Below, one piece after another: positions 3,994 to 40,545 of a DNA stretch of 40,545 nucleotides. Position numbers and translations under genes: made by a program. The notes under the pieces are model-generated. The model worked only from the letters and a program-made list of their open reading frames with translations. It was not told where the DNA came from and did not search any database. The number at the start of each line of letters is the position of its first letter. Within the stretch, counting starts at the first letter, position 1. The stretch is from the NCBI RefSeq assembly GCF_001672295.1, contig NZ_JXMS01000033.1, forward strand, positions 1 through 40,545, in the 5' to 3' direction. The DNA comes from Halodesulfovibrio spirochaetisodalis. Its GTDB lineage: Bacteria; Desulfobacterota; Desulfovibrionia; Desulfovibrionales; Desulfovibrionaceae.

Positions 3994-4461
3994 GAATTCG
4001 TCCCCCGAAAAGAGTAAAGCATAGCAACAGGTCCCCCCCTGTAATTGGAACGTCTCACTATGTAGATCAAGGCACAAAACGTTTCCGTAAGAACGGATGT
4101 ATAGTAAAAAAATGTGGGTACGCGTTAGAGTATATGTTTTGCGCAAAAATGATATGCATGTGTACACTGTTTGTGACGTAAAAACAACTGCTTGAGAAGT
4201 TTTTTGCAAAGGCTATTTTTTACCGTTCTATTCAATAAAATTGAGTGCTGTAGATACAAATACGATGTTTTACCGGCTAGTTTTTGTTGTAGTAATGGTA
4301 ATTATTTCTTTTATTTTTTCAAGAACAGGGTGTTATGGTTCGAGAACTATATAGGGACTGAAGTTTTAAGCGGTTGTCTACTGATACAGTAGAGTTATTA
4401 TCTGGTGCATCACCCTGTAATGCATGATACCGTGCGTTCAAATATAGTTAGGACGTATGGT
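3994..4461. other. Intergenic region, cyclase / TauE permease
   Basis: This AT-rich, 468-base divergent spacer should contain both promoters. I found no convincing operator, hairpin or small gene in it. Confidence 0.4.
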
Positions 4462-25631: not shown

Positions 25632-26219
25632 TTATACGTCAGCTGAACTGGATGTATGTATAAGTTGCTCAGCAAGAGTAACGGCAGCAGACTGAATATC
25701 CGAAACATCATTGTCCGGTGAGCCGTTTTGCGACGTAGCGCGAAGGATTTTTACAGAATACCCGTATAGTTTCAGCGCGTCTGTGTAGCGCGTAATGACC
25801 TCGTGGTAGGTATCATCGCTATCTCCTTGGCTGAGGATGAAAATAGCTGTCTTTCCTTGAGAGAGGCGACCGGCGAACGGGCTGGGTTTTGAAAAATCTA
25901 CATCTACCAGCGACCATGTTCTGTCAAAGAACATCTTAAATTGTCCTGAGACATCTCCATAATACACTGGGCTTGTGAATACGGCGATATCGGCTTCTTT
26001 CATGCCATCTAATATCGCTGTTACATCATCTTTTACGATACAGTGTGTTTTGGTTGAGTGGCACTGTTCACAAGCTTGGCAACCTTTATAGGTAAGGGCA
26101 TTTAGATAGAAGGTGTCTACGGTTGCCCCAAGGCGCTCTGCAGTGTCTGTAAAAGATTGTGCAATACGGTTACTGGTTCCCTTTTTTCTAGGACTTCCAA
26201 GAACAGATATTACTTTCAT
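25632..26219 (-). CDS. Iron-sulfur flavoprotein / NAD(P)H-dependent FMN reductase, module 2
   Basis: A 195-residue flavodoxin-fold protein with the FMN loop LGSPRKKGTSNR at 7-18. Cysteines 47, 50, 53 and 60 form CX2CX2CX6C, the [4Fe-4S] pattern of Isf. It closely resembles module 3 at 34069-34644, including identical cysteine positions and the FDRTWS segment. AGGAAG precedes the ATG at 26219; the longer frame from 26273 runs into the operators and is rejected. It is divergent from a TetR gene, and two palindromic operators lie over its promoter, so repression by that TetR is very likely. Confidence 0.9.
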   Translation of the reverse strand: MKVISVLGSPRKKGTSNRIAQSFTDTAERLGATVDTFYLNALTYKGCQACEQCHSTKTHCIVKDDVTAILDGMKEADIAVFTSPVYYGDVSGQFKMFFDRTWSLVDVDFSKPSPFAGRLSQGKTAIFILSQGDSDDTYHEVITRYTDALKLYGYSVKILRATSQNGSPDNDVSDIQSAAVTLAEQLIHTSSSADV

Positions 26220-26272
26220 AATTGATGCTTCCTGACTGTAGTGCGGGTTGTTGTGCAAAGTGCAGTTGTGCA

Positions 26273-26288
26273 TAGGTCGTTTGACCTA
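26273..26288. promoter_or_regulatory. TetR operator O1
   Basis: TAGGTC-GTTT-GACCTA, a perfect palindrome lying over the predicted transcription start and first bases of the flavoprotein message. Confidence 0.8.
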
Positions 26289-26294
26289 AAAACA

Positions 26295-26323
26295 GAACTA
26301 GGTCAAGCGACCTAGTATGTCAA
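26295..26323 (-). promoter_or_regulatory. Promoter of flavoprotein module 2 containing operator O2
   Basis: On the minus strand TTGACA (26323-26318), a 17-base spacer and TAGTTC (26300-26295). Operator O2, ACTAGGTC-AAGC-GACCTAGT (26297-26316, perfect 8-4-8), fills the spacer. O1 and O2 centres are 26 bases apart. Confidence 0.75.
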
Positions 26324-26432
26324 GTCAAAGAAGGTCCGGCTGTATTGGTGTGATCAATTCTGAAAAAGAAGGTGCCAGCTTGTCAGCTGGCTGGGTAGGG
26401 TGGTACTGCGGTGTATACCTAGGAGCAAGCAG

Positions 26433-27041
26433 GTGGCAAAAGTAACTACAACAGAACATCCTAAGATATCCTTAATAATTCAATGTGCCTTGGCAATTTT
26501 GAGTGAGCGCGGAGAGCATGGTCTGACAATGCGGCAGGTGGCTGTCAGTGCAGGCATGTCGTTAAGTAATGTTCAATACTATTTTACCAATAAGAATGAA
26601 CTGCTTAAGGGCATGGTCGAGTATTATGCAGCAGAGTGTGATGCAAGTTTTGAATCATATCTTATAGCAGCCAATGCAGATACGCCTCAGAAGCGGGTGC
26701 GCAGTATCATAGAGTACGGCTTGTGTGATGGAGAATGCCTCTCTGCTATGTGTCGAATTCTTAGAGAATTACAGGCAATATCTTCACGGAATGAGGATAT
26801 TAAATTGTTTCTAAGGATGTTTTATCGTCGCTTTATCAAGATGATATCTGAGTTCTTAGCTCCACTGGCAGTAAGCGAAGCAGCAGTATCCAAAGCTGTA
26901 AGCCTGTTGGTTCCATATTTGGAAGGCTATTCCATGACTGCCTGTTCTCTTCCATATGATAAGGAACAGTGTGTAGGCATGCTGTATGATCTTGTGTTGA
27001 ATATTCTGCAGTCATCAGAGCAAGACGGGAGAACATCATAG
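26433..27041 (+). CDS. TetR-family repressor of flavoprotein module 2
   Basis: A 202-residue regulator. The N-terminal helix-turn-helix is clear (HGLTMRQVAVSAGMSLSNVQYYFTNKNELL, about residues 30-60); the C-terminal ligand domain resembles the BetI-type TetR group. The GTG at 26433 has AGGAG 7 bases upstream and is preferred to the ATG-like frame start at 26400. A GCCAGCT/AGCTGGC hairpin (26374-26391) lies in its leader. Its operators are almost certainly the two AGGTC-N4-GACCT palindromes in the divergent spacer. Its stop is 6 bases from the stop of the convergent methyltransferase. The ligand is unknown. Confidence 0.9.
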   Translation: MAKVTTTEHPKISLIIQCALAILSERGEHGLTMRQVAVSAGMSLSNVQYYFTNKNELLKGMVEYYAAECDASFESYLIAANADTPQKRVRSIIEYGLCDGECLSAMCRILRELQAISSRNEDIKLFLRMFYRRFIKMISEFLAPLAVSEAAVSKAVSLLVPYLEGYSMTACSLPYDKEQCVGMLYDLVLNILQSSEQDGRTS

Positions 27042-27047
27042 GGGTAT

Positions 27048-27641
27048 TCAGCCTTGCGATGGTTTAGTGAGCAATATTGAGCTGCTGAGTGCTGCGTTGG
27101 TGCCAGCATGGACGTTGAAACCCGCTTCTGCTGCAAGTGTTTTCTCTAGCTCCAGAACTTGTTCTGAGCAGTGTATTTTGGGTTCAAGCACAAGAAAATT
27201 GGCTCCCGGCTTGAGCTGATTGTACACGTCGTTAAAGAATACCAGTATGTCCGGTGTTTCGTGCACCATCCAGCATGCAAGTGCAAAGTCTACTTGTTCA
27301 GATAATTCCAGAGATCGCTCAGAGCAACAGTGTGCTTTGATCCTATCTTCAACTCCGCGTTTCTGAGCTCTGCGGAGCATGACATCCAACATTTTTTGTT
27401 GGAGATCTGTGGCAATAACAACGCCGTTATTTCCTACCATCTCTGCCATGGCGAGAGAGAAGAAACCAAACCCGCATCCTATGTCCAAAACACGCATATC
27501 TTCCTGAAGATACGGGCCAACTATTTTTTCAGGGTTGTGAATGACTCTTCGTACCCAGTTGTCGAGAAAGTATCCTCCCCACCAAGGACAAACGGGATGT
27601 GGGTGGTAATCAGCTTTTTCGGGATTTTTTTTATCCGTCAT
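27048..27641 (-). CDS. Class I SAM-dependent methyltransferase
   Basis: A 197-residue enzyme with a Rossmann methyltransferase fold. Motif I is VLDIGCGFGFFSLAMAE, followed by the acidic end of strand 2 in VVIATDLQQKML and a motif II/III region VDFALACWMVHETPD. It has an N-terminal HPHPVCPWWGG segment rather like unclassified methyltransferases of anaerobes. The substrate cannot be inferred. The ATG at 27641 follows GGAG at a good distance; the frame start at 27680 lacks a good site. Confidence 0.87.
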   Translation of the reverse strand: MTDKKNPEKADYHPHPVCPWWGGYFLDNWVRRVIHNPEKIVGPYLQEDMRVLDIGCGFGFFSLAMAEMVGNNGVVIATDLQQKMLDVMLRRAQKRGVEDRIKAHCCSERSLELSEQVDFALACWMVHETPDILVFFNDVYNQLKPGANFLVLEPKIHCSEQVLELEKTLAAEAGFNVHAGTNAALSSSILLTKPSQG

Positions 27642-27822
27642 CGAATCTTCTCCAACTGCTTTTGGCGCAATGTTTTTCATACGTTCCGATTCGTATCCTA
27701 TGCCTATATAAGAAATCGCAGTGTGGATACAGTCTATTTTATTGAAATAATAGTACGTTTTTTATAAAGAAATTGGAACGTTACTTTATGGAGTACTATC
27801 AAATACAGGCTGGGAGCAGGAC

Positions 27823-28332
27823 ATGGTTCAGGTTCGACAAATAACAACAATTTCAGATGAGCAAAAGCAAGAGCTCGTTAATCTCTTAATGGATTCAGTG
27901 GAAGGTGGTGCTTCTATGGGATTTCTTGCTCCTCTTTCTGAGGAGAAAGCTCGTGCTTATTGGAATGACGTTGAAAAGGCACTTCAGTTCGGGTTGAGAG
28001 TCTTTGTTGCTGAAGCCGGTTCCAGCATCGTGGGTTCTGTGCAACTCTCTCCTTGTCCAAAGGAGAATGGAAAGCATCGGGCAGAGATTTTGAAACTGTT
28101 TGTTCTGCGCTCCCATAGAAGAATGGGGATTGCTAAGCAGTTGATGCAGTATGCACAAGAATATGCAGCTACCCTCAAATGTTCCTTGCTGATTTTAGAT
28201 ACTCACGAAGGCTCAAATGCTGAGGTTTTATACAGAAGTATAGGCTGGATAAAGGCTGGGATAATTCCGGGGTATGCTTCAAATCCTGATGGCGTTATGT
28301 ATCCAACTGCTTTTTATTATAAAGAGTTGTAG
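27823..28332 (+). CDS. GNAT-family N-acetyltransferase
   Basis: A 169-residue acetyltransferase. The acetyl-CoA pyrophosphate loop is present as LRSHRRMGIAKQLM (R-x-x-G-x-A type), followed by the helix and the LILDTHEGSNAEVLYRSIGW motif B. The substrate is unknown. GGAGCAGGA lies before the ATG. It is divergent from the methyltransferase and has its own terminator. Confidence 0.88.
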   Translation: MVQVRQITTISDEQKQELVNLLMDSVEGGASMGFLAPLSEEKARAYWNDVEKALQFGLRVFVAEAGSSIVGSVQLSPCPKENGKHRAEILKLFVLRSHRRMGIAKQLMQYAQEYAATLKCSLLILDTHEGSNAEVLYRSIGWIKAGIIPGYASNPDGVMYPTAFYYKEL

Positions 28333-28357
28333 CAAATTGATAGCGATAGAAATGTAT

Positions 28358-28391
28358 AGCGGGAGAGCATGTATGCTTTCTCGCTTTTTTT
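28358..28391 (+). terminator. Rho-independent terminator after acetyltransferase
   Basis: A 13-bp stem with two wobble pairs (28358-28370 with 28373-28385) followed by T7. Confidence 0.85.
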
Positions 28392-28529
28392 ATGGCTGAT
28401 TGATGTAAAAGGAGCTGCCCCGCTTTGAGCAAAGTGCGGTTTTCTTCGATTGTGGTGGAAAAATGTTTACGCCATGTGTTGACGTTGATAATCAATTTCA
28501 ATATATTTTCAAAAAATTTGGAGATTCAA

Positions 28530-28838
28530 ATGGCGCGAATAAATCGATTTGGAACTACAGAGGATATGATTATTCAAGAAGTAACAGAAGGTGATGCTTC
28601 TTTTCTTGTTGCGATAGATTCTAACGGGTTATATTTTACCACGCCGGATCGTGTTGATAACGGAATGGCAGATACAAACCGTTATGCAATGGATCGCACT
28701 GTTTTCTTGAACCGTCTGGAGAAGCTTGGCTTTTCGCCGATTGAGTTGTTTGAAAGCAATAGGGATAAGATTAAAATTGTTTCGAACTCAGCTAAAAAGC
28801 TTAACCCTCTTAAAGCATCCAAACGTGGCTTATCGTAA
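28530..28838 (+). CDS. Conserved-looking small hypothetical protein
   Basis: A 102-residue soluble, mixed-charge protein that I do not recognise. It has a repeated Y/N/D-rich centre (LYFTTPDRVDNGMADTNRYAMDR) and a basic tail ending KLNPLKASKRGLS, with no cysteine or membrane segment. GGAG lies 7 bases before the ATG, and a proper terminator follows, both of which argue that the gene is real. The longer frame from 28425 is rejected for lack of a binding site. Confidence 0.65.
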   Translation: MARINRFGTTEDMIIQEVTEGDASFLVAIDSNGLYFTTPDRVDNGMADTNRYAMDRTVFLNRLEKLGFSPIELFESNRDKIKIVSNSAKKLNPLKASKRGLS

Positions 28839-29430
28839 CCCATAACTATTGATACACGGCAGCAGGTGAATTGTCGTTCTTCTGCATCAACAAGGCTCTG
28901 GCACTGATAGTGTCAGAGCCTTTGGTTTTTTCTGTATTTGCTCTGTACAACGGAAGAACAGTTCCCTAGGGAAGTAGGAGTGCCTTATTTTGCATAACTT
29001 ATATTAGTTGAACTGGATTTACAGGTGTTGATCAAATTTTATATGGCAACAGTTGCTATTTAAGGTTGTTAGGTGGGGCACGTTGAGAGTTTGGTTCTGG
29101 GGAAAATATTTTTTAGCAAGTTTTATTCTGTTTTAACTTGCTACTTGATGACAATGCAGTGTGGATATATCGGGCATGAAAAACAACATGTGCTGATGTA
29201 GAAATGGTATTTTCGGGAATGGGGGGCTTGTGCGTCTTTTCTGATATTCATTTTTTGACGCAGCGAGATGCTAAATGATGTGTTTCAAGGTTGTTATAGT
29301 TAGTTTGTATTGCATGACCAGAAGCTTTTTCATCCATGCTTCTGGGTTGAAATAGATGAGTATGCGTCGAGGACGGTTTTAGCGCATACGGATTATTATG
29401 AAAAAAAAGAACCTGAAGGAGAGACACGCA
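28839..29430. other. Intergenic region before the OmpA lipoprotein
   Basis: 592 bases. After a terminator it holds three hairpins: TAGCAAGTT/AACTTGCTA (29114-29122 with 29135-29143), CCAGAAGC/GCTTCTGG (29318-29325 with 29338-29345) and GTATGCG/CGCATAC (29360-29366 with 29383-29389). The last two precede the lipoprotein start and could belong to its mRNA leader. Confidence 0.5.
28892..28928 (+). terminator. Terminator after small hypothetical gene
   Basis: AAGGCTCTGGCACT pairs with AGTGTCAGAGCCTT (one G-T) across a 3-base loop, followed by TGGTTTTTT. Confidence 0.88.
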
Positions 29431-30078
29431 ATGGTGCGAGTTTGTAGACTGCTGTTGGTGGGTTTTGTGTGTACAACCTTGTTGGGGTGTGCACATATGC
29501 AGACAAATCAAGGGAAAGGCACCGCTGTTGGTGCTGGCATTGGCGCAGGTGTTGGCGCTATTGTAGGACAGGCGATCGGCAGAGATACTAAAGGAACCCT
29601 TATTGGTGCCGGAATCGGGGCTCTTGTTGGGGGCTTGGCAGGTAACCAGATTGGTCGGTACATGGATATGCAGGAGCAGGATCTTCGTAACGCCATAGCT
29701 GCCTCTGATGCTGCAAGTGTGCAAAGAGAGCAGGATGTGTTGCGTGCGACCTTTAAAGGGGAAGCATATTTTGATTTCGACAAGAGTGCTCTTAAGCCGG
29801 GTGCCTATTATGAATTAAAACGCATTGCAGATGTGTTGAATAAATACCCGCAAACAACAATTGAAGTCGGCGGTCACACTGACACAAAAGGATCTGCTGC
29901 TTACAACCAGAAACTGTCAGAACGCAGGGCAGTGGCTGTTAAGGATGAGCTGATTCGTAACGGCGTTGCACCTCAGAGAATAAGCGCTATCGGCTACGGT
30001 GAGACACGGCCGATCTCTTCTTCTGATTCTGTAAACCGTCGAGTAGAGATTCTGATTGTTCCAGTACGCCAAGGCTAG
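29431..30078 (+). CDS. OmpA-family lipoprotein with glycine-zipper domain
   Basis: A 215-residue outer-membrane lipoprotein. The signal peptide ends in LLGC with lipidated Cys20. A glycine-zipper segment with two alternating small-residue stretches (about residues 30-75, GAGIGAGVGAIVG) follows, and then a peptidoglycan-binding OmpA domain (about 105-212) with FDFDKSALKPG, VGGHTDTKGS and NRRVEI. It probably anchors the outer membrane to the cell wall. The ATG at 29431 follows AAGGAGAG; the in-frame ATG at 29398 has no site. The organisation is that of YiaD/Pal-type proteins with an extra zipper. Confidence 0.93.
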   Translation: MVRVCRLLLVGFVCTTLLGCAHMQTNQGKGTAVGAGIGAGVGAIVGQAIGRDTKGTLIGAGIGALVGGLAGNQIGRYMDMQEQDLRNAIAASDAASVQREQDVLRATFKGEAYFDFDKSALKPGAYYELKRIADVLNKYPQTTIEVGGHTDTKGSAAYNQKLSERRAVAVKDELIRNGVAPQRISAIGYGETRPISSSDSVNRRVEILIVPVRQG

Positions 30079-30098
30079 CTGGTCGGAAAAATGAAAAT

Positions 30099-30132
30099 AA
30101 AAAAGCTGCATTGTATAATGCAGCTTTTTTTA
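30099..30132 (+). terminator. Rho-independent terminator after OmpA lipoprotein
   Basis: A perfect stem AAAAAAGCTGCATT (30099-30112) with its complement (30117-30130), followed by T-rich sequence. Confidence 0.93.
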
Positions 30133-30318
30133 TTGGCAGAGTTTTATAGATGTTTTTTAGTAAAAAATGATTTCATTCCTATGGCTGAGTGGGAGATCCA
30201 CAAAATAGTTTTTACTCATTAATAGGGTAGGTTCTTTTGCCAGTGCGCAATAAATATGTAATTTCTTCTGAGGGCTATATTTAACGTAAGGTTTAAACCA
30301 AGATACAAAAGGTTAGTT

Positions 30319-31197
30319 ATGAAAGCTGTAGAAGGCAGTCAGAGCCCAATTTATGATTTGAAAGAGGTGCCAGCTCATATTCTAGAGCGATTGGGAACAG
30401 TAACCTCTCTATTGTCGTTGTCAGATACTTGTTTTCCAAAAAGTGCGTTTGGGAATGTTCCAGAAGAATTGTGTAAGGTTGATAGGTTAAAATCAATAGC
30501 TCGTTATGAACAAAAAAATATTGTCGAATTATTTGAGGGAAGTCCGGAGTTTAGAAAAGCTGTAATCGAAATGGGATTTTCATGTTTCTTAAATCATGGC
30601 GCTATATTTATGGGGCAATATTCAGCGAATGATGCAGAGGAAGTTGTGCTAACAACTGTAGAGTCAGAGGCTTTTAGGAATAACTTGATTGATCACCTTA
30701 CGGTGGTTCCGTCGATGATGGAGAGAACTAGCTTTATCGTGAAGGGCTTGTATTTTCATAAAAAGAAAGAATACTTGGCTGCTGTGCTCGTTATTTTAGC
30801 TCAGCTTGAAGGGATTATAGCGGATTATTTGGAAGAACGTGGGTTAGCACTTAATGCGGAAGGAGCAGTTTATAAGCTAGATTCTTGCGGGGACTATTGC
30901 TTAACGAAAAAGAAAAAAAAGAATAAACTTGTTGGGTTATCAAATAAGATTGATAGAATAGATAAGCCTTCGGGGTGTACTATGGAAGTATCGTCTTATT
31001 TTAATGAACTTGCGATGTATCCCATTGATAATGAATGTAATCTTTATACTTATCGAAATAGAATAATGCATGGAGATAAAACAATTATTCCAACGCAAGA
31101 GACTTCAGCAAAGTTGATGTACATACTTTCTGGATGTCTGAATATATTTTATGGTTACTTATTGTTTCAGAAGATGCGGGATGACAATGTAATTTAA
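30319..31197 (+). CDS. HEPN-like protein of unknown function
   Basis: A 292-residue mostly helical protein that I cannot place in a named family. It ends with a helical bundle (about 150-290) and carries YRNRIMHG at about 245-252, with Arg246, Asn247 and His251. This is the R-x4-H motif of HEPN domains, which in many cases marks a metal-independent RNase; the helix YLAAVLVILAQLEGIIADYL before it fits the same fold. The gene is richer in A/T and in rare codons (ATA, AGA) than its neighbours. It stands alone, with no antitoxin-like partner, so a toxin role is only possible. AAAGG precedes the start. Confidence 0.6.
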   Translation: MKAVEGSQSPIYDLKEVPAHILERLGTVTSLLSLSDTCFPKSAFGNVPEELCKVDRLKSIARYEQKNIVELFEGSPEFRKAVIEMGFSCFLNHGAIFMGQYSANDAEEVVLTTVESEAFRNNLIDHLTVVPSMMERTSFIVKGLYFHKKKEYLAAVLVILAQLEGIIADYLEERGLALNAEGAVYKLDSCGDYCLTKKKKKNKLVGLSNKIDRIDKPSGCTMEVSSYFNELAMYPIDNECNLYTYRNRIMHGDKTIIPTQETSAKLMYILSGCLNIFYGYLLFQKMRDDNVI

Positions 31198-31361
31198 TAG
31201 ATAGCTTCCCTGATTTTAAAGAATTCAAGAGCTCTGCTTGCAAAGTTGTACAGTTTAGCAGATTCAAACGTGCCGCATGTTTTCAAAAGGTGCTTGCAAG
31301 TGTATGCAGTTATTTACTGCCATATGGTTAAGTCTAATAATTTTATGCTATTGGAGGTTGT

Positions 31362-31748
31362 ATGCAAGGATCATCAAGAGAGCATGGTGTGTTCAGTTTT
31401 AATGAACTGATTACTTCAGATTTGGAGTCTGCAAAGAAGTTTTATGGCGAGTTGTTCGGCTGGGAATTCAGGGAAACAGAAACAATTTATGGTAACCTGT
31501 ATCTAGTTGCTATGAAGGGCGATAAGGTCGTTGCGGGTATGATGCTCAGAGAAGGAAACGTGCCCGATGATGTTCCTCTTATTTGGGATCAGTATGTAAC
31601 TGTTGATGATGTAGATGCTTCGGCTCGGAAGGTTTTGGAAATTGGTGGCAAAGTCATGCTGCCCCCAACCGATATTGAGGGAGTGGGGCGTTTTTGTGTT
31701 GTGTTAGATCCACAGGGAGTAGGATTGAACTTGATCACCTATGTATAA
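31362..31748 (+). CDS. VOC-superfamily (glyoxalase-fold) protein
   Basis: A 128-residue single-unit protein of the vicinal oxygen chelate fold. Typical elements are the opening FNELITSDLESAKKFYGELFGW and the closing GRFCVVLDPQGVGLNLI. Metal-ligand residues cannot be assigned confidently. Such stand-alone proteins bind or isomerise small metabolites, or confer resistance; the substrate is unknown. GGAGG lies 5 bases before the ATG. A terminator follows. Confidence 0.85.
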   Translation: MQGSSREHGVFSFNELITSDLESAKKFYGELFGWEFRETETIYGNLYLVAMKGDKVVAGMMLREGNVPDDVPLIWDQYVTVDDVDASARKVLEIGGKVMLPPTDIEGVGRFCVVLDPQGVGLNLITYV

Positions 31749-31795
31749 CGTATGAAAAAATATGTGACGTCATTTCCGATGAAGAAAATAGTAGT

Positions 31796-31829
31796 AAAAG
31801 AAGGACTGAAGTAATTCAGTCCTTCTTTT
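31796..31829 (+). terminator. Rho-independent terminator after VOC gene
   Basis: A perfect 15-bp stem (31796-31810 with 31815-31829) with a 4-base GTAA loop and a TTTT end. Confidence 0.9.
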
Positions 31830-31982
31830 GGGTTAGTTGGTAGAGATTGGGTATTCTCCTCGTTTGACGGGCTTGAAAACAAGTTGCCATAGCAAGAAGA
31901 CCTACGTTACTTCCCTAAGCAGTTCAGTGATTGAATATTCAAGCCAGTACTGGGTTCTGAATAATTTTAGAGGAGAATTTCC

Positions 31983-33419
31983 ATGGGGCAAAATACATTA
32001 GACCCTGATGATTGGGGAGCTTTTCGCGCTTCGGCACATAAATTATTGGATGCCGCTATGGATAAAATGGAGTCAGCAAAAGAAGGAAGAGTCTGGACTC
32101 CACTGCCAGAAGGTATGAAAGAAGCCTTACAGGCAGATCTTCCTGTTGATGGCCTTGATCATGAATCTTTGCAGCAGAGGCTCGCGGAGTTGTTACCGTA
32201 TGGTGTAGGGAACACCCATCCGCGTTTTTTCGGCTGGGTGCATGGTGCAGGTAACCCGGGAAGCGTCTTAGCTGAGATTACAAGTGCAGCTATGAACGCG
32301 AATCTGGGAGGACGTGATCATGGTGCCATTTATGTCGAGAAGCAGGTAATAGAGTGGAGTCGCAAGATGATGGGCTTTCCGGAAGAAGCAAGCGGGCTTC
32401 TTGTTTCTGGAACCTCAATGGCAACCATCATTGCCTGCAAAGTCGCACGGGATTCAAGGCTCGGCTCTCAGTGCAGAGAACAGGGTGTAGGAAAGACGCA
32501 ATTGGTAGGCTATCTTTCCGAGCAGGCTCACTCCTGTATTGCACGTGCTTTTGATTTGCTGGGCATAGGTAGCGGAGCGCTGAGGAAAATTCCTTGCAAC
32601 GCTGACTTCTCGATGAATCTTGAAGAGCTGCAAAAAGCTATTAAAGAAGACCGTGCACAAGGTTTTGAGCCATTCTTTGTTGTGGGCACGGCTGGTTCTG
32701 TGAATGTTGGAGCCATTGATGATTTGGATGCATTAGCGGAAATAGCTAAGGCGGAGAATTTGTGGCTTCATGTTGACGGTGCCTTTGGTGCTACGGCTAT
32801 TTTGAGCAAAACAGCGAAAGAGCGCCTTGTTGGACTGAATCGTGCCGATTCCGTAGCTTTTGACTTTCATAAGTGGCTGCAGGTTAACTATGATGCTGGG
32901 TGTGTGTTGATTCGTTCCAAAGAAAAGCATCTACAATCCTTTTCAGGACGAGCGGAATATCTCACAGGTGTGAATAAGGGCCTAGCGGCAGGCGACTTGT
33001 GGCCTGTAGACCTTGGGCCGGAACTTTCCCGTGGTTTCAGAGCGTTGAAAGTGTGGGCTCATTTGCTTGAACATGGGGTAGAGAAGCTTGGGGCGTGCAT
33101 TGATGAAAACTGCAGACAGGCAGCTTACCTTGGGCAGAAGGTAGAGGACTCTGCTCAGTTTGAATTGCTGGCTCCTGTTGCGCTCAACATTGTTTGCTTC
33201 CGTTATATTGCAAAGGCAGAGTGTGATCTGGATGCGCTTAACAAGGACATTGTGATCGCTCTGCAAGAAAGAGGGATAGCGGCTCCTTCTACCACGTTCC
33301 TTAATGGTCAGTTGGCCATACGCGTGAACATTACGAACCATCGAACAGACATTCGAGATCTTGATTTACTTCTGGAAGAAGTCCAAAAGATTGGAGCTGA
33401 GTTTACAGAGAAAAATTAA
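31983..33419 (+). CDS. Group II PLP-dependent (aromatic/tyrosine-type) decarboxylase
   Basis: A 478-residue fold-type I PLP enzyme of the DDC/GAD family. The PLP-binding lysine is Lys297 in FDFHKWLQVNYDAG, and the Asp that holds the pyridine nitrogen is in LHVDGAFGATA. Substrate-contact sequence HPRFFGWVHGAGNP lies near residue 80. It should decarboxylate an amino acid such as an aromatic one or a related amino compound; the exact substrate cannot be read. GAGGAG stands before the ATG. The gene is a single transcription unit with a terminator about 185 bases after the stop, and no transporter is adjacent. Confidence 0.92.
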   Translation: MGQNTLDPDDWGAFRASAHKLLDAAMDKMESAKEGRVWTPLPEGMKEALQADLPVDGLDHESLQQRLAELLPYGVGNTHPRFFGWVHGAGNPGSVLAEITSAAMNANLGGRDHGAIYVEKQVIEWSRKMMGFPEEASGLLVSGTSMATIIACKVARDSRLGSQCREQGVGKTQLVGYLSEQAHSCIARAFDLLGIGSGALRKIPCNADFSMNLEELQKAIKEDRAQGFEPFFVVGTAGSVNVGAIDDLDALAEIAKAENLWLHVDGAFGATAILSKTAKERLVGLNRADSVAFDFHKWLQVNYDAGCVLIRSKEKHLQSFSGRAEYLTGVNKGLAAGDLWPVDLGPELSRGFRALKVWAHLLEHGVEKLGACIDENCRQAAYLGQKVEDSAQFELLAPVALNIVCFRYIAKAECDLDALNKDIVIALQERGIAAPSTTFLNGQLAIRVNITNHRTDIRDLDLLLEEVQKIGAEFTEKN

Positions 33420-33602
33420 TGACACGTCTTGTCATGTTCTTTTCAAAAACGTAGCATGTCAGTTCATATTCATCTGCATCAAGCACAATCCTGAGAATCT
33501 TTTATTTCAAGAGACAACCACATCGGGAAGGTACAGACGTTCAGTTTAGATGTTTGAGTGGCGAAAATGTCGACATGTGAAATGGATACAATGTGTTATA
33601 TG

Positions 33603-33644
33603 AAGAAGGCTTAGGCTGAATTGGTCTAAGCCTTCTTTCTTTGC
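33603..33644 (+). terminator. Rho-independent terminator of the decarboxylase unit
   Basis: A perfect 12-bp stem AAGAAGGCTTAG (33603-33614) with CTAAGCCTTCTT (33626-33637), then TCTTT. Confidence 0.85.
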
Positions 33645-33808
33645 CATGAATGAAGCACTATGGATACTTCGTTGGGTGTCATTCGTTTTATTTCTGAATG
33701 TACGATTAGGATGTGTAGCTGGATATTTTACTAATCTGGTAAGTACATCATCGACTATTAATGAATGCCCGTAACTAATTGATTATTTGCGCTTGTGAGT
33801 AGGCAAAG

Positions 33809-33850
33809 TTGACAGAGCAGTGGTGTGTTGTTAGATAGACCGAGTGGACT
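33809..33850 (+). promoter_or_regulatory. Promoter and AGTCC-type operator of flavoprotein module 3
   Basis: TTGACA (33809-33814), 17-base spacer, TAGATA (33832-33837). An AGACC-GAGT-GGACT operator (33837-33850) begins at the last base of the -10 and covers the start site, followed by AAAAAG as in the other copies. Confidence 0.75.
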
Positions 33851-34068
33851 AAAAAGCAAAGCTTTTGCATGGAGTAAAAATTAAGCACTAAAAAATAGTA
33901 GGGCAAGGATGTTCGGTACTAGATTGCCAAGAATGTGTTTGATTTAGCAGGAGTAAATCTAAATAGCGTGTTGGTATTGAGAGTCCTGCGGGTATTGAGA
34001 GTGGAGGGGATGGGTGAGCTGAACTTATTGAACTAATAAACCTTGGGTAATCAACAGGAAAGTACATT

Positions 34069-34644
34069 ATGAAACTAATTAATATTCTAGGAAGTCCAAG
34101 AAAAAAAGGTACTAGTGCTCGTATTGCCGAGTCTTTCGTTGAGGCTGCAAAAATTCACGGTGCACAAGTTGATAATTTTTATCTTAATAATATGGATTAT
34201 AGAGGCTGTCAGGGCTGTGAGCAATGTCATACAAAGGCTGACAAGTGCATTTTGAAAGACGATCTTACAGTTGTTCTTGATAAGATGCGTAGTGCTGAAA
34301 TTGCGGTATTTTCAACTCCTGTCTATATGGGGGGAACATCAGGGCAGTTTAAGCAATTTATCGACCGTACTTGGTCGCAGGTGGCGGTTGACTATACCAG
34401 TGAACAACCGTTTTCTAGTCGCCTACCTGATGGCAAGATCGCTATTTTTATTCTAACTCAGGCAGATGTTGAAGAAAAGCACACCGATATTGTGGAACGT
34501 TATACAGAGATATTCGGACTATATGGGTACGATATTCGAGTAATCAGATCCGCAGGTCTTATCGATGGAAGGTCGGATGCGGATGTCTCTGCTGCGCAGG
34601 AGAAAATAGTGATGTTAGCACATGAGCTTTTGGGCACACGATAA
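34069..34644 (+). CDS. Iron-sulfur flavoprotein / NAD(P)H-dependent FMN reductase, module 3
   Basis: A 191-residue flavodoxin-fold protein with FMN loop LGSPRKKGTSAR at 7-18 and cysteines 47, 50, 53 and 60 in CX2CX2CX6C. It is strongly similar to module 2 at 25632-26219 over its whole length. The start is supported by ACAGGAAAG about 10 bases upstream. A TetR gene follows 276 bases later on the same strand. Its promoter carries an operator identical in design to four sites before the membrane protein gene at 36831. Confidence 0.9.
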   Translation: MKLINILGSPRKKGTSARIAESFVEAAKIHGAQVDNFYLNNMDYRGCQGCEQCHTKADKCILKDDLTVVLDKMRSAEIAVFSTPVYMGGTSGQFKQFIDRTWSQVAVDYTSEQPFSSRLPDGKIAIFILTQADVEEKHTDIVERYTEIFGLYGYDIRVIRSAGLIDGRSDADVSAAQEKIVMLAHELLGTR

Positions 34645-34758
34645 TAAATTCACTTCTGATGTGAAGCTCATAGTCACGAATGGCTTCTTTGTATTGAATC
34701 CTGTTCGGATAAGCCTTTTTTTTAATTTAAAAGAAATGCTGATACCTTAGAATGAAAG

Positions 34759-34789
34759 AATCCACCTGGTTTGTCAGGTGGATTTTTTT
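34759..34789 (+). terminator. Rho-independent terminator after flavoprotein module 3
   Basis: AATCCACCTG pairs with CAGGTGGATT around a 6-base loop and runs into seven T. Confidence 0.93.
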
Positions 34790-34920
34790 GTCTCTTTCCT
34801 CTTTTTGCTTTAAAAATAAGAAAAAGTCTGGCTCTTTTCCACTTTGAGTTATCGTGATAGTTCCAAGCCACATTGTGTGCCAACTGTTACAAAAAAATAT
34901 TAGGTCAATGAGGAATAAAT

Positions 34921-35475
34921 ATGCCCAAGATTGTAGACCATGCAAAAATGCGGGAAGAAATTGCTCTTAAAGCTGCAAGTGTGTTTCTTGAATATGGATA
35001 CAAAGGCATTAGTATGAGGCAGCTTTGTAAACATATTGAGATGAGTAAAAGTGCTGTCTATCATTACTTTAAAAGTAAAGATGAAATTTTTAAAGCCTCG
35101 ACTGAGGCTATTGTAAACTACGATTTTGAAGTTCTTTCTGATGTTCCATTAGCGAATGTAGCTAGCCTAGACGAAAAATGTCAGAACTTTGAACGTCTAT
35201 TCCGTGTATTGTCTTCTCGTTTTTTTCAAGAGCTAAATCTCGTAATGGAATATATTGAGACTATTGGTGAAGATGTAGTTGCAAAAGATGAGCTAATGAA
35301 CATCTCAAATAAGAAATATCAAGAGTTACTGTTTCGATTTGTAGATGAAGAAAATTCGAGTACTCTATATACGATGCTACTAGGCTTGCTAACTCATCGC
35401 GTTCTTCGTGGTGAAGATTTTAGCTCTGAAGAAATTCAGTTGGTTGCTAGAAGACAGCTAACAGCCAGAGTATAA
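34921..35475 (+). CDS. TetR-family regulator, second
   Basis: A 184-residue regulator with an N-terminal helix-turn-helix (YGYKGISMRQLCKHIEMSKSAVYHYFKSKDEI, about 26-57) and a helical ligand domain. GAGGA lies 7 bases before the ATG. It is the best candidate for binding the AGTCC-N4-GGACT sites near modules 3 and the membrane protein, because TetR proteins typically bind such 5-4-5 palindromes. I find no copy of that palindrome in its own upstream region, only an AGGTC half-site at 34901. Codon use is AT-rich like the next genes. Confidence 0.9.
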   Translation: MPKIVDHAKMREEIALKAASVFLEYGYKGISMRQLCKHIEMSKSAVYHYFKSKDEIFKASTEAIVNYDFEVLSDVPLANVASLDEKCQNFERLFRVLSSRFFQELNLVMEYIETIGEDVVAKDELMNISNKKYQELLFRFVDEENSSTLYTMLLGLLTHRVLRGEDFSSEEIQLVARRQLTARV

Positions 35476-35708
35476 AATTATTTTTTTAAATGGTAATTGA
35501 AAAAGTTGGAAGCAACGTAGAATGTAGGAAGAGTGATATTGATTTGATAATATCAATTTTTATATAAGATAAATTCATGTTTGAATTTTTTCGGCAATAC
35601 TTTTTAGCTTTGTAAGAGACGCGAAACTATTGTCTGAAGCTGTTTGATTTATGTTTTTACTCGGTAAATTAGTCGAAGATGCTTTATACAATATAAGGTC
35701 TTGAAATA

Positions 35709-36341
35709 TTAAAGGCTAGAGAGTCCATTCCGTAGTGCATACAATGTTGCTTGAACTCTATTGGCTAAACCTAATTTACAGAAAATATTGTTCAAATGTG
35801 TTGAAACAGTTGCACAACTAATATTTAGCTCATTCGATATAGTCTTATTATCCCTTCCTGTTGCCACCAGTTGTAGAATTTCTATTTCTCTGGAAGTTAG
35901 TTGTGATGTTTTTTCTGCAGTAAGGTCATGAGAAGTAATAAGTAACCTTAAAGCCTGTGTTGCAATGGTAGGATTAGTTGTTAGCAGCCCACAGTTTAAC
36001 TTTCGAATGCTTTCAACCAACTCTTCCGGTGAAGCCGTTTTTTCTAAAAAACCCAAGATTCCTGCTTTAACAATAGTAGCAAGCTCGTCTTCAGATATTA
36101 TATTCGTTAATAAGAGTATTCTACTTGGAATTTTTCTTTTTATCAGCCTGAGGCTTGTCTCTAAGTCATCAATAAGGATGATGTCTGGTTTTGTAAGTTC
36201 TATTTTAGGAAGTATTGAATTTTCGGTAGATACATCTTCTACAACAGTTATTCCTGTGGCTTTAGATAATACCATCTTTAAACCAATTCGAAATATTTCC
36301 TGACGATCAACTAACAGAATTTTTAAGTTACGATTATTCAT
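35709..36341 (-). CDS. Orphan NarL/LuxR-type response regulator with altered receiver
   Basis: A 210-residue regulator with a receiver domain (about 5-120) and a LuxR-type helix-turn-helix (about 148-205, LTSREIEILQLVATGRDNKTISNELNI). The likely phospho-acceptor is Asp58, with Thr79 and Lys101 in their usual places. The acidic pair at the N-terminus is broken: where most receivers have DD, this one has VDRQ, so the second metal-binding acid is Arg13. The normal PG loop after Asp58 is also missing. No histidine kinase is adjacent. It may act without phosphorylation. AAGG precedes the start. Confidence 0.88.
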   Translation of the reverse strand: MNNRNLKILLVDRQEIFRIGLKMVLSKATGITVVEDVSTENSILPKIELTKPDIILIDDLETSLRLIKRKIPSRILLLTNIISEDELATIVKAGILGFLEKTASPEELVESIRKLNCGLLTTNPTIATQALRLLITSHDLTAEKTSQLTSREIEILQLVATGRDNKTISNELNISCATVSTHLNNIFCKLGLANRVQATLYALRNGLSSL

Positions 36342-36830
36342 GACTAGCCTTACTGCCTATAACGAATACAGATTTTATGCTTGTTAGGTTGTCATCCGCT
36401 AACGTTAGATCACCCTACGTTTTTCTAAAGAAGGTATTTGAGCTGGCTTAGGGACGATGCAGTCGTAACAGTGCTACGAAATGTTGTTTGAATTGGGCAA
36501 TAGTTTGCCCGCCCCTCGTTCAAGGTTTGTTTTTTTGTGTTTTTATAGTCCGCTTGGTCTGTAAAGTAGATGCAGGGGCCATTCTTGTCAATGTAAAAGT
36601 CCAATTGGACTAAAAAAGGAGTGCTTTCCGGTCTTTTTTCTTGAAAAAATTCAAGGTGGATAACTGCAGTAAAATTGAAGCTGCTTTTGCGAGAGTAAGG
36701 TCAGCTGTCATCTTTTTAGTCCAAATAGTCTAAAAAGATTGACAGGAGCAGCGTCAATTTTTATTTTCGTCCAAGTGGAATAAAAAAGCCGATTAATCTA
36801 CCAAAGTTAAAATGAAAAAAGGAATTAGAA
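36342..36830. promoter_or_regulatory. Control region with four AGTCC-type operators
   Basis: Four palindromes of the form AGTCC-N4-GGACT occur, most followed by a run of A: 36547-36560, 36598-36611, 36718-36731 and 36768-36781, the second one perfect. The promoter of the rightward gene, TTGACA (36739-36744), 17 bases, TATTTT (36762-36767), is bracketed by the last two operators. The first overlaps TATAAA on the minus strand, a plausible -10 for the response regulator. Confidence 0.75.
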
Positions 36831-37358
36831 ATGTTTAACGGATTTTCAAGAGAATTTTTAGGCGAGACTCCCACAAGACGAGATAAAATAACAATTTTTA
36901 GTATTACTTTTCTATTAGTAGGGGTTGTTGGCTATAAAAGCTCACCAGAGCTAGCAATGTTACCTATGTGGAAAGTAATACTATTTCTGGTAACGATATT
37001 GGACATTTTTGCTGGAGCGATAGCCAATTTTACGAAATCGAGTCAGATCTATTATAAAAATAAGCCAGCTAAAAGAATTGCTTTCTATTTTGAACACATA
37101 ATTCACATTGCATTCCTCGTCTTAACAGTGGGGCACATGTGGTATTGTGTTGGATTGCTAGCATACACAATTGCTGCTGGCTTATTTGTAAACTATACTG
37201 ATTCACTTAAGCAGCAAGAAATTAATGCAGCAGCTGTTGTATGTATTGGTCTTGTTTTATTTTATGTTGTCGTTCCAGTTCCGCAAATACTTGTGTGGTT
37301 GCCGTCTGTTTTTCTGGTAAAATTGATATTTGGCTTTTCGATACGAAGAGAAAGGTAA
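36831..37358 (+). CDS. Polytopic membrane protein under AGTCC operators
   Basis: A 175-residue protein with about five membrane helices. Between helix 2 and 3 are the conserved-looking LDIFAGAIANFTKSSQIYY, where several small and polar residues fall inside a helix, and FEHIIHIAFL with histidines that could bind a cofactor or metal. I do not recognise the family and assign no function. AAGGA stands 8 bases before the ATG. The dense operator array before it suggests tight control, perhaps as an effector of the flavoprotein regulon. Confidence 0.75.
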   Translation: MFNGFSREFLGETPTRRDKITIFSITFLLVGVVGYKSSPELAMLPMWKVILFLVTILDIFAGAIANFTKSSQIYYKNKPAKRIAFYFEHIIHIAFLVLTVGHMWYCVGLLAYTIAAGLFVNYTDSLKQQEINAAAVVCIGLVLFYVVVPVPQILVWLPSVFLVKLIFGFSIRRER

Positions 37359-37396
37359 CACTATTCCTGCTGAGGGAACATTTTGTGGAGGATATA

Positions 37397-37434
37397 AGAC
37401 GCTCGCTTAATATAGTTAGGCGGGCGCTTTTTTT
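37397..37434 (+). terminator. Rho-independent terminator after membrane protein
   Basis: A 12-bp stem with one bulge and two wobbles (37397-37408 with 37419-37430), then T7. Confidence 0.75.
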
Positions 37435-37577
37435 CTTGAATATTAAGATTGAGAACAACGTGCTAACTTCATTGTTTTTGTTAATGAAAAATCCCAATAC
37501 GTATTCATTTTATCAATTTGTTCAAGATGTTCTGCGCATGTATAGCGGTAGTAATTTTAACATCTTGGAGGAAGACA

Positions 37578-38855
37578 ATGAGCGATGCTGCATACACAGC
37601 CATGTGGGAGAATTTAAATCTGGATATCTCGGCACACGATGGCCTGCTTGAAGTACTGGGAAAGTTTTACGGGGATATTTATCTTTCTCAGCAAAATAGA
37701 CTCAAGGGAATGGAGTACTTGGATTTTGTTCTCTCCGAAGTACATGGTTTGCGTGTCAAAGAGCTTCAGGACGCAAAAGCAGCAGGGAAAAAGGTCATTG
37801 GTACCTTCTGTGTTTTTGTTCCAGAAGAGCTCACATTAGCTGCAGACGCTGTACATGTGGGACTGTGTTCAGGTGCTGATGCTGGAACGGAGGAAGCGGA
37901 AAAGCTCGTTCCCCGTAATACATGCGCACTCATCAAATCTTTTATCGGATTCAAACTTGCCCGTCTTTGTCCATACACAGAGTCATGTGATCTGATCGTT
38001 GGTGAAACAACATGCGATGGTAAGAAAAAGGCATATGAAGCATTCAGCAATCATGTTTCAATGCATGTTATGGAAGTACCGCAAACAAAGACAGCAGATG
38101 CTAAAGCTCTTTTTAAGGCAGAAGTGCTTAGGCATAAAGAAGCCTTGAAAGCACTTACCGGTACTGAAATCACACTCGAAAATTTACAAAAATCAATCAC
38201 TATAGTGAATGAAAAACGAAAAGCACTACAGCGCCTTTCCCGCCTGAGAGCCGCCGATCCTGCCCCGATATCTGGACGTGATGCGTTACTTATTAATCAG
38301 GTTTCTTTTTACGACGATCCGGTTCGTTTCACCCAGTCCATCAACACACTCTGTGATCAAATTGAAGAACGCATTGAAAAGAAAGAAGGTGTAGTTCCTG
38401 CTGGAACTAAACGCTTGTTGGTGTCTGGATGCCCTATGGCTGTTCCAAACTGGAAATTGCCGTATGTTATGGAAAGCTCCAATGCTGTGATAGTTGGCGA
38501 AGAATCGTGTATCGGCTCCCGAAATGTCAGGGACTTGGTAGATGAAACGCCAGACACTCTAGATGGACTGATTGATGCGTTAGTTGACCGCTATATGAAA
38601 ATAGACTGTGCCTGCTTTACGCCAAACAACGAACGCATGAGCAATGTAGAAACAATGGCAAAAGAACTTAATGCCGATGGCGTAATACACTATGCGTTAT
38701 CTTTCTGTCAGCCATATGCACACGAAGCCATAAAGCTAAATAATGTGCTGTCAGCGAAGGGCATTCCCATGCTGTCTATTGAAACTGATTACAGCATGGA
38801 AGATGTTGAGCAGCTTAAGACTCGTGTAGAAGCTTTTGTTGAGATGTTGGATTAG
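37578..38855 (+). CDS. Double-cubane cluster reductase (2-hydroxyacyl-CoA dehydratase D family)
   Basis: A 425-residue protein of the BcrC/BadD/HgdB family, of the double-cubane type (E. coli YjiM relatives). Conserved motifs include GTFCVFVPEELTLAADA, LIVGETTCDGKKKAYE, RLLVSGCPMAVPNWKLP and VIVGEESCIGSRNVRD, with cysteines placed to ligate an iron-sulfur cluster. Such proteins reduce small or activated substrates at low potential once loaded by an ATP-driven activator. GGAGG lies 8 bases before the ATG at 37578; the longer frame from 37518 is rejected. The activator gene follows 2 bases later. Confidence 0.9.
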   Translation: MSDAAYTAMWENLNLDISAHDGLLEVLGKFYGDIYLSQQNRLKGMEYLDFVLSEVHGLRVKELQDAKAAGKKVIGTFCVFVPEELTLAADAVHVGLCSGADAGTEEAEKLVPRNTCALIKSFIGFKLARLCPYTESCDLIVGETTCDGKKKAYEAFSNHVSMHVMEVPQTKTADAKALFKAEVLRHKEALKALTGTEITLENLQKSITIVNEKRKALQRLSRLRAADPAPISGRDALLINQVSFYDDPVRFTQSINTLCDQIEERIEKKEGVVPAGTKRLLVSGCPMAVPNWKLPYVMESSNAVIVGEESCIGSRNVRDLVDETPDTLDGLIDALVDRYMKIDCACFTPNNERMSNVETMAKELNADGVIHYALSFCQPYAHEAIKLNNVLSAKGIPMLSIETDYSMEDVEQLKTRVEAFVEMLD

Positions 38856-38857
38856 CG

Positions 38858-39625
38858 ATGTTTGCAGGGATAGACATTGGCTCACGTTCAATTGAACTGG
38901 TGGTACAGCAAGCAGGAAAAATTATTCATACCGCGCAGCTTCCCACTACGTTTTCACCCCTCGAACAATGCCGAAAGCTATTACATGGTCACACACCGAA
39001 ACTGCTCACAGCAACAGGCTATGGCCGTGAATTGGTTAAAAGTATTGAGCTTCCGTATGAAGTCAAAACGATTACTGAAATCAAAGCACATGCCCTTGGC
39101 GCTCATGCGTTATTTCCAGACGCCCGAACAGTTCTTGATATCGGCGGTCAGGATACCAAAGCTATCGCCCTTAATGACAAAGGGAGAGTTCTCAAATTTG
39201 AAATGAATGACCGTTGTGCAGCAGGAACTGGAAAGTTTTTAGAGTATACGGCTGCGGTATTTCAAATGGATGTCGAACAGTTTGGGAAATATGCGCTAGA
39301 GGGTATTAACCCGCCTGTTATTAACAGTATGTGCACCGTATTTGCGGAAACAGAAGCAACATCGCTTATGGCACAAGGTTTTCCTCCATCAGATATCGCG
39401 TTGGCCTTGCATCAGGCTGTCGTACGCAGGACGTGCACCATGTTAAAGCGAACAGGGTTAGAATACCCTCTCGTATTTTCCGGTGGCGTGGCAAACAACG
39501 CCTGCATACGCAATCAGTTGCAACAGGAACTCGGAAGCAGCGCTACTGTTTATATTGCAGATCAACCAGATATGTGTGGTGCTTTTGGGGCAAGCCTCTG
39601 GGCAGAACAATCGTGCTCTGACTAA
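38858..39625 (+). CDS. Activating ATPase of the reductase (BadF/BadG/HgdC family)
   Basis: A 255-residue ASKHA-fold ATPase. The first phosphate loop FAGIDIGSRSIEL is at residues 2-14, the second VLDIGGQDTKA at 92-102, and SGGVANNACIRNQL forms the adenosine-binding part. Cysteines 120 and 159 are 39 residues apart, the same spacing as the two that hold the intersubunit [4Fe-4S] cluster in HgdC (Cys127 and Cys166, from memory). It should donate one electron at very low potential to the upstream protein at the cost of ATP. The start is 2 bases after the reductase stop, so they form one unit. Confidence 0.93.
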   Translation: MFAGIDIGSRSIELVVQQAGKIIHTAQLPTTFSPLEQCRKLLHGHTPKLLTATGYGRELVKSIELPYEVKTITEIKAHALGAHALFPDARTVLDIGGQDTKAIALNDKGRVLKFEMNDRCAAGTGKFLEYTAAVFQMDVEQFGKYALEGINPPVINSMCTVFAETEATSLMAQGFPPSDIALALHQAVVRRTCTMLKRTGLEYPLVFSGGVANNACIRNQLQQELGSSATVYIADQPDMCGAFGASLWAEQSCSD

Positions 39626-39681
39626 GGGGGGCTTAATGCATAGAAGAAAATTGTTCTGGTTACGACAACATAGATAAGAGT

Positions 39682-39715
39682 AAGGCAGGCTGATTCATTT
39701 CAGTCTGCCTTTTTT
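39682..39715 (+). terminator. Rho-independent terminator after reductase/activator unit
   Basis: AAGGCAGGCTGA pairs with TCAGTCTGCCTT (one wobble) across a 6-base loop, followed by T-rich sequence. The convergent channel gene ends 57 bases on. Confidence 0.9.
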
Positions 39716-39771
39716 CTTTTGGTATAGTCACATAATGTGTGCACAGAAATCTCGCATAAAGGCACAACCGA

Positions 39772-40545
39772 CTATCGTACTACTGCACTGGATGTTTTGT
39801 CGAACGGGTTTGTGCGGACAGCGAGGGAGAAAAGGTAAGGGTAGTCCGTTTGCAGATGTTGCATGTAGTCTATCCATTGGGAGAGCAACAGCTTGTATAC
39901 TCGGTGGATATCACCCGAAAGATGCTTGAGATCTGTTTTAGGAAGATCGGTGAGAGTGCTTCGGTTAAGTAGCTCTTCTTTTAGATGGAATGTTGCCCAC
40001 ATCAGATCTGTAAACTGTTCATGCTCAGCCATGTTGGGGTTTTCTAGTATGCGCATCAAAAAAGGCGTGTGGGTTTGTAATAGCTGCTTGAGCTCTTCTA
40101 AATCGTTTCCAGCATGTTGGGCTTCAAAGGGGTAATTCAGCATGTGCTGGCGTACTCCGGCAAAGTCTTTTGCCTGCCATTTACCGCAATTGGCGAGTCT
40201 GCTTTGCACGGTAGGCAGGTTCGTATCCAGACTGGAAATTTGGAACAAGAGTTTGGTGCCCACTTCACTGAAAAAGCTTCCTATGACCATGTTAAGACGT
40301 TGCAGCCGCTCGCGTTTCTCTCTGGCATTTAACAGGCGTTCGGTCATGCTGGTGAGGACGATAGTGAAGGTGCATACGCCGGAGAGAATGAGAATAGTAG
40401 CGAGAATTTTCCCAGCTCCAGTTGTTGGGTGGATGTCTCCATAACCTACTGTGGTTACAGTAACGACGGAAAAATAGAGAGCATCGGCAAATGGGATATT
40501 TTCTGCATACATAAACCCGAAGACACTACAGAGAAAAAGGGTGCC
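39772..40545 (-). CDS. Potassium-channel-like protein, 5' end cut by the window
   Basis: The frame is open to the right edge, so the N-terminus is missing; the first visible ATG at 40512 lies in what is probably the end of the first membrane helix. The pore region is intact, with the selectivity filter TVGYGD about 20 residues further on, followed by a second membrane helix. The roughly 180-residue cytoplasmic part has no recognisable RCK/TrkA domain and looks mostly helical. It is likely a two-helix potassium channel with an unusual cytoplasmic domain. Gating cannot be inferred. Confidence 0.82.
   Translation of the reverse strand, partial: GTLFLCSVFGFMYAENIPFADALYFSVVTVTTVGYGDIHPTTGAGKILATILILSGVCTFTIVLTSMTERLLNAREKRERLQRLNMVIGSFFSEVGTKLLFQISSLDTNLPTVQSRLANCGKWQAKDFAGVRQHMLNYPFEAQHAGNDLEELKQLLQTHTPFLMRILENPNMAEHEQFTDLMWATFHLKEELLNRSTLTDLPKTDLKHLSGDIHRVYKLLLSQWIDYMQHLQTDYPYLFSLAVRTNPFDKTSSAVVR

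Follow-up and report, generated by a model that had tools for sequence, protein, structure and literature searches.

A candidate TetR-type regulon with shared palindromic operators in Halodesulfovibrio spirochaetisodalis

Relation to described systems

Local regulons under a TetR-type regulator are a known kind of system, of which the cassette described here is a new case. As far as the available parts of the sources describe them, NemR and AltR respond through a conserved cysteine, and the altR box (CAATCTAC-N6-GTAGATTG) differs from the operator TAGWCC-N4-GGWCTA of the present locus. The conserved sensing cysteine is a feature of those regulators: the TetR studied here has Cys36 and Cys87 and lacks the Cys60 common to eight of ten aligned TetRs (an alignment without NemR), and thiol sensing via a conserved cysteine, though possible, finds no support in this ten-TetR alignment. 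The operator may resemble the NemR box. Among the papers listed in literature searches none treats this operator or cassette; for the search with sequence words these were 20 of 2,588, mostly unrelated, which is no sign of absence.

The locus lies in a contig of H. spirochaetisodalis, of which the whole analysed stretch of 40,545 nucleotides is called the window; its features are listed in Table 1. The flavoprotein encoded at 34069 matches the Pfam families FMN_red/Flavodoxin_2 and shares the flavodoxin-type fold with the Isf family. In the available part of the publication the amebic Isf motif is given as CX2CX2CX5-7C (PMC3164229), and the CX2CX2CX6C of the flavoprotein falls inside it. Its four cysteines are kept in all four aligned flavoproteins, one of which is the paralog at 25632. 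No Isf-named model was matched by the protein, for which a 4Fe-4S cluster and reductase activity are putative. The paralog locus (25632-27041) encodes a flavoprotein with the same cysteine motif, divergent to another TetR-like gene, and contains two perfect TAGGTC-N4-GACCTA palindromes at a distance of 26 bp (26273-26288 and 26299-26314) as well as TTGACA on the minus strand at 26323; it may represent a sister regulon that uses another operator.

The response regulator encoded at 35709 aligns with VraR over nearly its full length (E 3.5e-28), and a receiver domain (PF00072, 31.8 bits with a cut-off of 30.2) and a GerE domain (PF00196, 72 with a cut-off of 23.5) are common to both. The phospho-accepting Asp and the Lys are kept, whereas the second acidic pocket residue, an Asp in VraR, is Arg12, and the intact acid pocket of phosphorylation-dependent response regulators is thus missing. 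No histidine kinase was found among the ten ORFs of 30319-40512 in a Pfam scan of those ORFs.

The TetR encoded at 34921 (P0002) has an N-terminal helix-turn-helix domain (PF00440, E 6.1e-13, above cut-off) that is nearly invariant, with MR and SK.A.Y.YF present in all ten aligned TetRs. Four other TetR matches in the same genome are weak (best E 1.8e-5), none of them extending past residue 107 of 184.

The family of the membrane protein (P0001) had been called unrecognised in a previous, sequence-only reading of this DNA. This holds for the family databases: all matches stayed below the curated cut-offs when seven members and seven remote relatives were scanned with Pfam, and P0001 together with five remote relatives with NCBIfam. 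The protein is not unique, since six distant genomes encode relatives with 59-75% identity. The seven members share 72 invariant columns. A low-confidence structure model (mean pLDDT 69.6) has long helices at residues 16-36, 46-65, 79-100, 103-120, 126-147 and 157-173, and a search of the PDB with this model gave no match, the best of 39 hits with E up to 10 having an E value of 1.3.

Table 1. Features of the candidate regulon. Positions refer to the window; scores are those of the 16-bp operator matrix.
Feature	Position	Strand	Description	Score and occurrence
Flavoprotein promoter	33809..33836	+	TTGACA-16-TTAGAT or TTGACA-17-TAGATA	
Operator 1	33836..33851	none	TAGACCGAGTGGACTA, directly 3' of flavoprotein -10	19.2 bits; only strict TAGWCCN4GGWCTA in genome
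Flavoprotein	34069..34644	+	NADPH-dependent FMN reductase/flavodoxin-fold protein, Isf-like; CX2CX2CX6C (C47, C50, C53, C60)	
TetR-family regulator	34921..35475	+	Probable repressor of the set; without operator in 34645-34920	
Response regulator	35709..36341	-	NarL/VraR-like; acid pocket altered (D11-R12 in place of the two Asp of VraR)	
Operator 2	36546..36561	none	Downstream operator of response-regulator promoter	15.4 bits
Response-regulator promoter	36563..36591	-	TTGACA (36591-36586)-17-TACTTT, faces response regulator; unnamed in the earlier reading	
Operator 3	36597..36612	none	Upstream operator of response-regulator promoter	18.7 bits; only exact AGTCCN4GGACT in genome
Operator 4	36717..36732	none	Upstream operator of membrane-protein promoter	17.0 bits
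Membrane-protein promoter	36739..36767	+	TTGACA-17-TATTTT	
Operator 5	36767..36782	none	Downstream operator of membrane-protein promoter	15.7 bits
Membrane protein	36831..37358	+	175-aa integral membrane protein; no Pfam/NCBIfam family	
Terminator-like hairpin	37400..37426	+	3' of membrane-protein gene	

Operator sites and promoter geometry

The sequence-only reading had reported five palindromes of the design AGTCC-N4-GGACT. All five are present where it had placed them, starting at 33837, 36547, 36598, 36718 and 36768; the design had to be revised. Only 36598-36611, a perfect palindrome, matches it exactly, 33837 and 36547 have one mismatch each and 36718 and 36768 two each, and the consensus is TAGWCC-N4-GGWCTA. 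The strict 14-bp pattern AGTCC-N4-GGACT has a single occurrence in the 3.61-Mb genome. With up to two mismatches it is not above chance in the window (13 matches, shuffle mean 9.2, sd 2.8; 11 of 100 shuffles reach 13), so that evidence from outside the window is needed for the five-site claim.

A 16-bp matrix was trained solely on eight sites from four other genomes (loci L055, L057, L058 and L059). It ranks the five sites first to fifth in the 40.5 kb (in the order 33837, 36598, 36718, 36768, 36547), the next best match having 13.6 bits, and because of this ranking by a matrix from relatives they are treated as one set. When the window was randomised 60 times by a first-order Markov model, scores rose to 16.6 bits at most, and matches with at least 12 bits numbered 0.7 on average. 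Three window sites exceed every randomised score; 36768 and 36547 stay below the random maximum and would therefore not stand out alone.

The strict 16-bp pattern occurs once in each of four of the five genomes searched, always at the cassette locus. The fifth genome, G062 (locus L058), has no strict match and also has one weak site, which counts against the proposal. The counts in G000, G059, G061, G062 and G063 are 1, 1, 1, 0 and 1, compared with 3, 12, 6, 5 and 0 for a reversed control; in all but G063 the palindrome is rarer than the control, which may mean that it is avoided elsewhere. A relaxed 19-bp pattern, AGWCCNANTGGACTAAAAA with up to three mismatches, is not enriched in the genome of H. 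spirochaetisodalis (17 matches versus 52 of the reversed control). Six of the 17 matches are the five window sites, one being read on both strands. The remaining 11 places all score below 15 bits, with a maximum of 11.5; eight are within ORFs of at least 216 aa and three (L005, L015, L016) only in ORFs of at most 72 aa. Five matches with up to two mismatches in other genomes of the genus are all within ORFs of at least 172 aa, with a highest score of 14.3 bits. Terminators were considered as well: only 36611-36598 (minus strand) comes up as a terminator-like hairpin, and the set is therefore not read as terminators. The stretch 33400-37600 gave no Rfam match at gathering score.

Four of the sites had been assigned to the membrane protein. 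All four are there, but they divide into two for the membrane protein and two for the response regulator: the pair 36718/36768 frames the membrane-protein promoter and the pair 36598/36547 a minus-strand promoter toward the response regulator. A site toward the response regulator had been described as lying over a TATAAA; the pair 36598-36611/36547-36560 around TTGACA-17-TACTTT is the better description. The operators of either pair are 50-51 bp apart. With the first TTGACA base as zero, the operators start at -20/+31 for the response regulator and at nearly the same offsets, -21/+29, for the membrane protein; the flavoprotein promoter has +28 only. The relatives have -22/+29 (L055 and L057) and -21/+38 (L058 and L059). 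Altogether, the window contains 14 TTGACA motifs on both strands, and three fit the operator frame.

Two strong promoters had been proposed, at 33809 and 36739. Both TTGACA motifs are found on the plus strand with operators starting 28 and 29 bp on, and a generic promoter scan backs only 36739, the single one of the three promoters that it reports. Those at 33809 and 36591 fail the scan because of their -10, which counts against the proposal, as do the leaders of about 200 nt of the response regulator and the flavoprotein. TAGATA, originally given as the -10 for 33809, runs into its operator by one base; TTAGAT with a 16-bp spacer is the alternative. The generic promoter total in 33400-37600 is not above that of shuffles (11 versus 12.7).

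Conservation and origin of the cassette

A scan of GTDB species genomes, which finds close relatives only, identified the six relatives of the membrane protein in two Desulfobacteraceae MAGs, Thalassomonas, Agarivorans, Marinifilum and Flammeovirga. In four of the six loci (L055, L057, L058, L059) a TetR starting MPKI[VI][DN]H is encoded divergent to the membrane protein, and each of these intergenic regions contains two palindromes of this design. One palindrome is exactly AGTCCATATGGACT in L055 and L057, the two Desulfobacteraceae, which also encode an FMN reductase downstream of the membrane protein. Two observations count against the proposal: the window TetR has only 32-35% identity to its four relatives, and in the two Bacteroidota loci both a TetR at this place and a good site are missing (L056 has one three-mismatch match).

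This arrangement bears on the promoter facing the response regulator, since in the four relatives TetR, not a response regulator, is divergent to the membrane protein. TetR might target only the membrane protein and the flavoprotein, with 36547/36598 being the remains of an old divergent TetR-membrane protein promoter beside which the regulator moved in; the poor -10 and long leader of the response regulator would fit. The pair, however, keeps a full TTGACA, a 17-bp spacer and both operators in the regulator's orientation, and the site at 36598 has stayed a perfect palindrome. We regard such a remnant as unlikely and prefer the reading that the response regulator is under TetR control as well, which the arrangement in this one genome suggests.

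At E <=1e-8, homologs of the TetR are present in 14 plasmid records; the top one aligns to 93% of the TetR at 36% identity. Eight of these loci were fetched (L110-L117, identities 32-36%, about 7.5 kb each), and at a threshold of 15 bits the matrix finds two to three sites in every one of them, each no more than 300 bp upstream of tetR, the rest of the locus being free of matches. As L112, L113 and L116 are near-identical, and likewise L114 and L115, the eight loci amount to about five independent cases. At the same threshold there were no matches in 29 loci of other TetRs (87,970 bases) or in 26 further loci (167,912 bases), together 256 kb of controls.

The divergent gene in L110-L113 and L117 encodes a membrane protein of about 205 aa, which in L111-L113 and L117 shows a weak profile match to the membrane-protein family (14.5-19.3 bits, E 2e-7 to 7e-6 in a five-sequence search). 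In L114, and by annotation in L115, it encodes a DUF2269 membrane protein, and L116 has no divergent gene annotated. Near tetR, an SDR- or dehydratase-type protein is encoded in L112, L113 and L116 and a DUF1295 protein in L114 and L115; none of these is nearby in L111 and L117, and L110 is unannotated. The plasmids, with operators at about 3290-3500 of the fetched loci, come from Vibrio, Martelella and a record named Dysgonomonadaceae zrk40. On the Vibrio coralliilyticus plasmid pSNUTY1 (L116) the tetR copy (3501-4060) is unannotated and has internal stops, and the operators are kept. CP070278.1 (L115, filed as Dysgonomonadaceae zrk40, 246,192 bases) and NZ_CP066788.1 (Martelella lutilitoris, 246,197 bases) are of nearly equal length, have the same TetR score and both come from a cold seep; one of the two host names may be wrong.

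These loci also decide between binders. The sequence-only reading had named the response regulator as a further candidate, and four of the sites adjoin its gene, so that it might bind the palindromes and autoregulate with TetR as a bystander. In 12 other loci, some of them near-identical, the sites accompany a TetR of this kind and no response regulator adjoins them, leaving this binder unsupported; L057 and L058 contain, 3-5 kb away, an ORF that looks like one for a response regulator. No such sites occur near the 29 other TetRs, and a 14-16-bp palindrome together with the conserved TetR helix-turn-helix fits a TetR. Binding by the response regulator was rejected on these grounds and is very improbable. 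Chance palindromes or a repeat element can be set aside with still greater assurance, as next to negligible: the AGTCC pattern with two mismatches is not enriched in the whole window and the two weakest sites score within the randomised maxima, but the matrix from other genomes makes the sites the top five, promoter offsets are fixed, no tandem array was found and the control loci are empty. The five sites are best read as operators of TetR 34921. The earlier proposal of a local operator set with this TetR as likely repressor is thus supported, as judged from the relatives' loci, the matrix ranks and the plasmid loci.

The window differs from the 12 other loci in one respect: there the operators usually adjoin their own tetR, here they are at target genes instead. 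The TetRs with TAGWCC-N4-GGWCTA are a grouping made in this analysis by sequence, of which adjacency to tetR is not a defining feature. The best score upstream of the window tetR is 3.1 bits (34645-34920), and a terminator-like hairpin (34752-34791) separates tetR from the flavoprotein unit; both count against the proposal.

Random scatter of the palindrome or missing conservation in relatives would have spoken against the proposal. The outcome favours it in so far as the palindrome is kept beside TetR in distant genomes, although absent from close relatives, which lack the membrane protein: of 59 genomes of the genus, family and order searched, the 58 others have no P0001. Remote relatives of the protein occur in 16 of 344 other genomes of one gammaproteobacterial family sample, while the class sample (368 other genomes) and the phylum sample (394) gave none; the 86 genomes of the family of L055's genome contain one relative besides the centre. 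A seventh relative is encoded on a Flammeovirga plasmid, between a gene annotated Crp/Fnr and one for an SDR oxidoreductase. In L073 and L079 remote relatives lie directly 3' of an ORF that reads like another kind of TetR.

The G+C content of 34500-37500 is 33-36%, compared with 42-49% in 31500-34000 and 43-47% in 37500-40500. A further low stretch (36-39%) is found at 30000-32000, so the contrast is not unique. Nine congeners have the dehydratase gene and its activase, and 13 window proteins (25632-37358 or 39772-40512) are absent from the fetched surroundings of that gene, the stretch upstream of it being short in L102 and L109. As the whole upstream block differs in the congeners, no clean insertion boundary was seen. 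The cassette was probably acquired horizontally, as suggested mostly by its patchy distribution.

Proposed regulation

From the sites, their geometry, their conservation with this kind of TetR and the conservation of the cassette, all read from sequence, we infer binding, repression, an inducer and the roles of the products. The explanation that we consider highly probable is a cassette whose own TetR represses three units via TAGWCC-N4-GGWCTA operators, to which it would bind as a dimer. One operator is directly 3' of the flavoprotein -10. The TTGACA promoters of the membrane protein and the response regulator are each framed by two operators, the first shortly before the -35 and the second at the start site, where bound repressor would obstruct RNA polymerase on either side. 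TetR would be released by a small molecule, probably redox-active or electrophilic. Derepression would then yield a response regulator for which normal phosphorylation may be dispensable, besides the Isf-like flavoprotein and the membrane protein, which would form a pair for detoxification or redox functions. This redox or electrophile theme is a guess, as likely right as wrong, that is suggested by the accompanying proteins (Isf-like, SDR and DUF1295).

A further-reaching scheme is possible, if somewhat doubtful. TetR would have captured an orphan, partly degenerate response regulator: TetR would sense the inducer, and the kinase-free regulator, made only on derepression, would relay the signal to a second gene set elsewhere, while the flavoprotein and the new small membrane-protein family would handle the compound at the membrane.

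The analysis provides a testable operator and a candidate repressor for a TetR group of Desulfobacterota, Gammaproteobacteria and Martelella that is encoded beside small membrane proteins, often with an oxidoreductase. For a membrane-protein family that has no model in Pfam or NCBIfam, it would also offer an initial clue to function, in redox stress or detoxification. Should TetR indeed control the response regulator, the locus would be a case of a one-component system feeding a two-component-type regulator.
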